From NCBI GenBank assembly GCA_013390375.1, contig JACATA010000001.1, positions 1 through 50,210 of the forward strand: a stretch of 50,210 bases of DNA, given 5' to 3'. The position numbers were made by a program, and so were the translations under genes. The DNA comes from Marine Group I thaumarchaeote. GTDB lineage: Archaea > Thermoproteota > Nitrososphaeria > Nitrososphaerales > Nitrosopumilaceae. Below are positions 7,640 to 9,415 of this stretch, in pieces; position 1 is the stretch's first letter, and the number at the start of each line of letters is the position of its first letter. A model generated the notes under the pieces. That model was given only the letters and a program-made list of their open reading frames with translations. It did not search any database and was not told the origin of the DNA.

Positions 7640-8083
7640 TTGAAATTAAAATATTTAGCATTAACATCTTTGGTAGTTCTTTATTCTTTGATGGTTATAG
7701 GCGGATATATCTCTGCAGCAGGACTTGGATTAACTTGTCCAGATTGGCCGTTATGCCCAAATGGAATTTTGCCTAACGAAGAATACTTTATTGAATGGTC
7801 ACATAGACTGATTGCTGCAACTACTGGAGTATTGGTAATAGCTACCGCTGTGGGTTCTTGGATTACAGCAGGTTCTCATTGGAGGATTAGAACTACTGGA
7901 ACTCTGGCAGCTATATTTGTCGTAACCCAGATAACACTAGGTGCATTGGTAATAGACACGCTGCTGCATGCCGTGTTGGTATCCATTCATTTTGGCATTG
8001 GAATATTGCTTTTTGCCATGGTTCTGTTAACTACGTTGTTTGCATTCAGACTGAAACCAAAATCTATTCAGACTACTGTTTAG
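7640..8083 (+). CDS. Short haem A synthase-like membrane protein (COX15/CtaA family, four helices)
   Basis: This 147-residue protein has four membrane segments, half the size of bacterial CtaA, like the archaeal half-length forms. After helix 1 it carries Cys33 and Cys39 in a loop matching the CtaA extracellular Cys pair, and the haem-ligand-type His55 (EWSHRL) and His117 (SIHFG). Such proteins convert haem O to haem A for the oxidase encoded just upstream. The start is a TTG one base after the cupredoxin stop. A four-helix protein would be expected to dimerise to rebuild the eight-helix architecture. Confidence 0.85.
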   Translation: MKLKYLALTSLVVLYSLMVIGGYISAAGLGLTCPDWPLCPNGILPNEEYFIEWSHRLIAATTGVLVIATAVGSWITAGSHWRIRTTGTLAAIFVVTQITLGALVIDTLLHAVLVSIHFGIGILLFAMVLLTTLFAFRLKPKSIQTTV

Positions 8084-8591
8084 ATTTTGATCTACGCTTT
8101 GACCAATATACGTAAACGAATATTATTGCAGTCATCATTCCGCCCATTGTAACTGCACTAATGAAAACAAACCCAAATGTATTCTGGGAGCTTATGTTAA
8201 ATGTGTAAGTAAGTGGTTGTCCATCATCGGCAATATCATATAGATCAACTCTAAAAACATGGTTTCCTGACATTTCAAAAATATAATCCATTTCCATATG
8301 CCCGTTTTGATACATCTTAGGTATGACAGCATCAATTTGCTCTCCATCATAAAAAATCCTAATTCCCAACGTAAATTGATCTAGTTCTTGAAAATCAGCG
8401 TCTACAACTTGGAAAAGAACTTGAATTTCTTCATCAACAGATGGTATTTCAGGGAGCGTAGCGATTTGAATTCGATGATCTCCTATCCATTCTTCTCCTG
8501 AATTAAACATTGAGTGTGCTTCAGCTCCAGGGATCAGGTTGATCATTGGTATAATTACAAAAAACAAAAAAAAGAGTTTCATTATTTGCAT
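8073..8591 (-). CDS. Secreted, C-terminally anchored protein; possible copper-binding CopC/YtkA-like
   Basis: This 172-residue protein has a signal peptide (about residues 4-25) ending in GAEA, a beta-rich extracellular domain (about 26-133), and a C-terminal membrane helix (about 139-162) with a basic SKRRSKSK tail on the inside. Cleavage after AEA would leave His26 as the mature N-terminus, with His39, His98 and His111 available as further ligands, as in His-brace copper proteins such as CopC. No family is certain. It overlaps the end of the haem A synthase-like gene by 11 bases, in convergent orientation. Confidence 0.7.
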   Translation of the reverse strand: MQIMKLFFLFFVIIPMINLIPGAEAHSMFNSGEEWIGDHRIQIATLPEIPSVDEEIQVLFQVVDADFQELDQFTLGIRIFYDGEQIDAVIPKMYQNGHMEMDYIFEMSGNHVFRVDLYDIADDGQPLTYTFNISSQNTFGFVFISAVTMGGMMTAIIFVYVYWSKRRSKSKQ

Positions 8592-8656
8592 TTTCTTTCT
8601 TACAAATTATAATCAATATATTGTAAAGGAATCTGCTGGCGGTATTTGCCAAAAGC

Positions 8657-8663
8657 TTTAAAT
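8657..8663 (+). promoter_or_regulatory. TATA box for the SRPBCC gene
   Basis: TTTAAAT is centred about 28 bases before the TTG at 8688, the distance expected for a leaderless archaeal transcript. It supports that TTG as the start. Confidence 0.5.
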
Positions 8664-8687: not shown

Positions 8688-9293
8688 TTGACCTTAGTTA
8701 GTAAATCAATCGAGATCAAGGCTCCGGTTGATACTGTGTTTACGTATTTTGCAAGACCAGAACACGTTTCTGACCAATTAAAGGATCAAGAACGCGTTGG
8801 AATGACAGTCATTCCCATGGACATCAAAGAAGGAATGGGAGTAGGAACCACATTCAGAATAATAGGAGACTTTGATGGAAGGCGTCTAACGTGGGATTGT
8901 GAGACCACACAGTTTGACAGAAATGAAAAAATATCTGCAAAGATGATTAAGGGAAAATTCAAGAGATGGGAGATTACAAACGAGTTCAAAGCATTGGATG
9001 ACAATCTTACTCGTGTAACAATGACTGTGGATTACGAAATGCCACTTGGTCCATTAGGAGGAATTATTGATAAACTCAAGTTTGCTAAGAGTGCTGAAAG
9101 GGGAATGGAAAACGCCCTTTACAACGTTAGAGGCTTGCTGGAAGGAAACGGCTCAATACCAGTATACATTACTCTTGACGCATACCAAAAACTTCTAGCC
9201 GAAAAGAAGAAGATGAATAACATTCCAGTTTCCAAAGTACTCACTTCAATTCTTGAAAAGTATGATCAAAATCAAGTAGAAATTAAGAACTGA
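8688..9293 (+). CDS. SRPBCC (START-like) protein with C-terminal ribbon-helix-helix-like segment
   Basis: Residues 1-150 show an SRPBCC/polyketide-cyclase pattern: the opening strand SIEIKAPVDTVFTYFARPEH, alternating beta strands, and a long amphipathic helix at about 125-150. This fold binds hydrophobic ligands. After a short GNGS linker, residues 156-192 read like a ribbon-helix-helix DNA-binding unit: a beta strand with ITLDAYQKL, a helix, and the NIPVSKVLTSILEKY second helix. A ligand-responsive regulator is a plausible inference. The gene is monocistronic, starts at TTG and is followed by tRNA-Lys. The alternative is a plain lipid or aromatic-compound-binding protein with a dimerising tail. 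Confidence 0.75.
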   Translation: MTLVSKSIEIKAPVDTVFTYFARPEHVSDQLKDQERVGMTVIPMDIKEGMGVGTTFRIIGDFDGRRLTWDCETTQFDRNEKISAKMIKGKFKRWEITNEFKALDDNLTRVTMTVDYEMPLGPLGGIIDKLKFAKSAERGMENALYNVRGLLEGNGSIPVYITLDAYQKLLAEKKKMNNIPVSKVLTSILEKYDQNQVEIKN

Positions 9294-9341: not shown

Positions 9342-9415
9342 GGGTCTATAGCGCAGCCAGGTAGCGCACCGGACTCTTAATCCGGCTGTCATGGGTTCAA
9401 ATCCCATTAGACCCG
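9342..9415 (+). tRNA. tRNA-Lys (anticodon CTT)
   Basis: A complete cloverleaf: acceptor GGGTCTA/TAGACCC, anticodon stem CCGGA/TCCGG with loop CTCTTAA, and T loop TTCAAAT. Position 73 is G and CCA is not encoded. A TTTAAATA box lies at 9308-9315, about 30 bases upstream. The argH stop codon on the other strand lies 3 bases past the tRNA end. Confidence 0.95.

Follow-up and report, generated by a model that had tools for sequence, protein, structure and literature searches.

A ribbon-helix-helix-like tail on an SRPBCC protein: a candidate ligand-responsive regulator in AOA

The window analysed here, a stretch of 50,210 nucleotides from a Marine Group I thaumarchaeote, encodes a 201-residue protein in which an SRPBCC (START-like) domain is followed directly, on its C-terminal side, by a tail of about 45 residues with the strand–helix–helix outline of a ribbon-helix-helix (RHH) subunit. 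The SRPBCC-RHH protein is single-copy and near-universal in ammonia-oxidizing archaea (AOA), and among the relatives sampled the tailed form occurs only there. The tail very probably adopts an RHH-type fold. For the protein as a whole we lean, by a modest degree, towards an AOA-specific, ligand-responsive one-component DNA-binding regulator, a reading for which we infer dimerization, DNA binding, the ligand and the direction of regulation. The features of the locus are collected in Table 1.

Table 1. Coordinates of the SRPBCC-RHH gene, its parts and neighbouring features in the window
Feature	Position	Strand	Basis or remark
Divergent gene for a small protein	8073–8591	-	
BRE/TATA-like core promoter word AAAGCTTTAAAT	8652–8663	+	Conserved; ends 24 nt before the start codon
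SRPBCC-RHH gene	8688–9293	+	201 aa, TTG start, stop included; intact ORF
SRPBCC/START-like domain, residues 1–152	8688–9143	+	PF10604 profile, AF2 fold, PDB matches
SRPBCC C-terminal long helix, residues 126–151	9063–9140	+	AF2 DSSP
Linker E152–G155 (EG[N/T]G), near-invariant in AOA	9141–9152	+	Alignment; low-confidence coil in the AF2 model
Predicted RHH strand, residues 156–162 (SIPVYIT)	9153–9173	+	In register with the VapB strand; near-invariant
RHH helix A, residues 163–175	9174–9212	+	AF2, full-length and tail-only models
RHH helix B, residues 181–200	9228–9287	+	AF2 (both models); alignment
tRNA gene downstream of the ORF	9342–9415	+	Intact covariance-model match, 72.3 bits; anticodon CTT (Lys) read by eye

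The initial annotation had delimited the open reading frame exactly and had placed a complete START-like domain ahead of the tail, which Pfam profiles and the AF2 and PDB comparisons bear out. Residues 1–152 match Polyketide_cyc2 (PF10604) with an E-value of 1.2e-10 and 42.3 bits against a cut-off of 27.4, and the matches to Polyketide_cyc (PF03364, E 3.6e-7) and AHSA1 (PF08327, E 9e-7) over the same residues also lie above their cut-offs. The AF2 model resembles START/SRPBCC structures in Foldseek, best of all TTHA0849 (2d4r_A, E 8.2e-10), and the helix-grip fold with its long C-terminal helix is present by both AF2 and Foldseek. The SRPBCC fold is thus held in common with the single-domain START/Polyketide_cyc2 proteins (TTHA0849, MSMEG_0129 and the Rv0910 and RatA toxins), but the closest solved members are 145–147 residues long and have no room for an RHH tail. 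The gene is present as a single copy in its own genome. Its start codon is mostly TTG in Nitrosopumilaceae orthologues, and mostly ATG, at the same position, in Nitrososphaeraceae and Nitrosocaldaceae.

The tail does not pack as an ordinary SRPBCC helix, the domain's own helix (residues 126–151) being complete before the tail begins in the AF2 model. Residues from about 152 to 162 are modelled with low confidence and are followed by the two helices of Table 1; in a model of the tail only, pLDDT reaches 93–96 across fragment residues 11–40. The predicted strand appears as coil in the monomer model, as would fit a strand that pairs in the dimer only. The initial annotation had described a strand with ITLDAYQKL and then two helices; the pattern holds and the boundaries shift, with ITLDAYQKL running from the last residues of the strand into helix A. 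Helix B begins at an invariant S182 motif, which reads PVS, or S-V-S-E in Nitrososphaeraceae.

Support for the RHH assignment first made in that annotation comes from a profile–profile match, from sub-threshold Pfam matches of orthologues and from a fold search, though not from the window protein by itself, which has no RHH match in Pfam or NCBIfam and whose tail is assigned to nothing significant by PADLOC together with Pfam/NCBIfam. RHH profile matches do exist by way of the orthologue tails, which at the order level reach VAPB_antitox (PF02697) with a best E-value of 3e-5 and 25.1 bits, none attaining the curated cut-off of 27.9, and which also match MatP_C weakly (Pfam E 0.03, below cut-off). 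We take PF02697 to be an RHH family, and the same family as COG1753. The archaeal COG1753 proteins are described as RHH antitoxins of PIN toxins (PMC2701414). For the profile comparison, 28 PF02697 sequences and 28 RHH_1 sequences were taken from genomes of the phylum, the PF02697 set being archaeal. In hhalign the tail alignment matches the PF02697 set with a probability of 93 and a score of 35.4, against a best score of 17.3 for 60 column-shuffled control tails. The match to the RHH_1 set is weaker (probability 12.6, score 17.0; shuffled maximum 13.0), which is no strong objection since the two RHH sets score only 13.0 against each other. HMM matches are reciprocal, the VapB model finding a Nitrosocaldaceae tail at 5.4e-5 and the tail model finding a VapB at 1.8e-5; the tail profile yields only chance matches among PDB sequences.

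The fold search points in the same direction. The tail-only model gave 38 Foldseek matches in the PDB, of which 12 are named RHH proteins (MatP, NikR, MazE-mt1, ParD), with MatP 4d8j the best-fitting (TM 0.74, 1.3 Å). The remainder are two chains labelled as TCP domains, 21 chains labelled 'transcription factor and DNA complex' (7vp1–7vp7) and three others. We take the 7vp1–7vp7 chains to be TCP domains as well and TCP domains to be RHH-like, so that presumably 35 of the 38 are RHH or RHH-like. Every E-value in this search exceeds 0.7, weak values that we ascribe to the shortness of the tail (52 residues), and the evidence lies in the concentration of the matches on one fold. Those E-values, and the want of a Pfam match above cut-off, would suit a generic helical hairpin that resembles an RHH; we regard such a hairpin as very improbable, because the profile score far exceeds that of the shuffled controls and because the PDB is rich in two-helix hairpins and yet the matches are almost all to RHH or RHH-like proteins.

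The archaeal VapB antitoxins (PF02697), the nearest relatives of the tail, share with it the same strand–helix–helix in register, [IV]xIxxxAYxxLxxxK...SxSxxI. They differ in that the tail described here sits behind an SRPBCC domain and lacks the toxin-binding C-terminal part (positions 3–38 of the 69 in PF02697 are matched). No PIN toxin gene was noticed adjoining the SRPBCC-RHH gene, and no PIN-like product was seen among those neighbours that were read by eye. The kinship with VapB, together with weak matches of some relatives to the NCBIfam models for RatA (0.0055) and the Rv0910 toxin (1.8e-4), brings up a fused and domesticated toxin–antitoxin pair, in which a RatA/Rv0910-like SRPBCC toxin would be restrained by a VapB-like RHH antitoxin tail. 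Rv0910 is indeed a START/polyketide-cyclase-type toxin (PMC2781298). We nevertheless give this reading little credence: the window protein has no NCBIfam match and the RatA and Rv0910 models are silent on it at E ≤ 1, tail-less orthologues persist without an RHH or VapB gene within about 1.5 kb, and the gene is vertically kept, single-copy and stable in its neighbourhood, unlike mobile toxin–antitoxin modules.

The distribution of the tail follows that of AOA. Across 300 evenly sampled genomes of the phylum, strong matches (E ≤ 1e-66) come from 43 of the 44 genomes in the window's family, two of three in family f2 and all three in f3, and from no further family of that sample. A larger order-level sample adds family f56, along with relatives at 38–45% identity in f61, f62 and f66, non-AOA members of the same order whose proteins end at about 165 residues and consist of the SRPBCC domain without the tail. 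The tail is real coding sequence, being retained by every one of 138 full-length orthologues whose AOA loci were examined (some loci duplicate a genome). Every genome checked in f1, f2, f3 and f56 carries amoA (PF12942) and no tail-less family does, so that tail and amoA coincide in every family checked. In a tree of the SRPBCC part a single change of tail state suffices, at modest support (68/73); the simplest reading is that the tail was gained once around the AOA ancestor, though it may instead have been lost in the other families. The tail-less orthologues show the SRPBCC domain to have a function independent of the tail. A separate RHH gene beside them was considered as a clue to gene fusion and rejected, as no RHH or VapB gene was found within about 1.5 kb.

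Most Nitrosopumilaceae loci, and f56, place the gene after those for a blue copper protein and ctaA, and after coxB–coxA as well where the locus extends that far. The same oxidase cluster also precedes it in several Nitrososphaeraceae, with a gene for an iron-containing alcohol dehydrogenase in between; the dehydrogenase gene lies directly upstream of SRPBCC-RHH in L111, L153 and L158, where oxidase cluster genes stand further upstream, and likewise in L112 and L113. Synteny is lost in some genomes (L067, L079 and L112–L115). The cox, ctaA and copper-protein neighbours hint at a signal linked to respiration, heme, quinone or copper. The divergent neighbour conserved in Nitrosopumilaceae and f56 is a small, secreted-looking or membrane-anchored protein with no significant Pfam family; its positional counterpart in Nitrosocaldaceae, likewise divergent, is a CopC/CopD/YtkA protein.

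Conservation is highest where the tail would meet DNA. Among 139 AOA sequences the most conserved stretch is 153–162 (0.975; the SRPBCC domain scores 0.80), followed by helix A and then helix B, and G155, S156 and P158–L163 are invariant. Set in the VapB register, V159 and I161 would face the core and P158, Y160 and T162 outward. The predicted outward residues match the core ones in invariance, and with both faces invariant the strand fits a role in dimer as well as DNA contacts. None of the three is among the R, K, N or Q common at RHH contacts, and the net charge of the tail is only 0 to +2. The scarcity of basic residues in the strand and this low charge also suit a protein that does not bind DNA at all, in which the tail would be a dimerization or partner-docking module and the whole would carry lipid, quinone or heme, or serve the neighbouring oxidase genes as an assembly factor; so do the existence of orthologues without the tail, the tight synteny with coxA, the blue copper protein and ctaA in Nitrosopumilaceae, f56 and several Nitrososphaeraceae, and the match to PF03364, a family that presumably includes COQ10-type proteins. 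We judge such a carrier unlikely, while according it real weight, since the outward residues are conserved beyond the needs of dimerization alone and gene and tail survive where the synteny is lost. Moreover, most known RHH domains bind DNA.

If the protein is a regulator, as we prefer, two subunits would pair through their C-terminal RHH tails, the strands 156–162 forming a two-stranded ribbon that enters the DNA major groove and the helices 163–175 and 181–200 making up the core of the RHH dimer. The SRPBCC domain of each subunit would bind a small hydrophobic molecule. In this fold the C-terminal helix of the SRPBCC domain lines the pocket, and here that helix would connect to the DNA-contacting strand via the near-invariant four-residue linker EG[N/T]G, so that ligand occupancy could alter how the dimer is spaced or oriented on DNA. 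NikR, structures of which are among the fold matches of the tail, likewise combines a ligand-binding domain with an RHH domain. In NikR nickel is sensed by the C-terminal domain and the RHH domain is N-terminal, whereas the protein described here has its RHH-type tail last, and an SRPBCC domain would be the sensor. A link between SRPBCC and DNA-binding proteins also exists between genes, as SRPBCC/AHSA1 (COG3832) genes neighbour genes for ArsR-type HTH repressors (PMC2701414); those pairs differ in the HTH fold of ArsR, in consisting of separate genes and in belonging to another SRPBCC subfamily.

Of 141 regions upstream of the gene, 137 contain an AAA[C/G]CTTTAAAT box, placed in almost every case in AOA about 25–30 nt ahead of the start; given this spacing, the SRPBCC-RHH mRNA is probably leaderless. 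In the form AAACCTTTAAAT the word occurs exactly once per genome in several AOA genomes, at the SRPBCC-RHH gene wherever coordinates are comparable. As an operator the promoter word was rejected: in a control with the same genomes, the amoA promoters proved equally conserved (10 vs 11 columns at ≥90%), the flanking bases vary between families, and the word shows no special depletion within the window. No operator-like site was identified, and none is claimed. The amoA upstream regions (L258–L275) carry the core promoter AA.T.TTATATA, which is kept in all AOA families sampled.

Among open-licence PMC papers we found no description of an SRPBCC-RHH protein, and the reports of a 'polyketide cyclase' in soil papers are unrelated or uninformative. 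It might be that an SRPBCC sensor joined to an RHH domain represents an undescribed class of one-component transcription regulator, with a single origin in the AOA ancestor and conserved in AOA to regulate respiratory or energy metabolism, a broader proposition to which we give slightly less than even chances. An SRPBCC domain would extend the sensor-domain repertoire of RHH proteins. AOA are among the most abundant marine organisms, yet their gene regulation is poorly understood, and a single-copy candidate sensor-regulator that co-occurs with amoA, and whose tailed form is absent from the nearest non-oxidizers, offers a specific and testable entry point.
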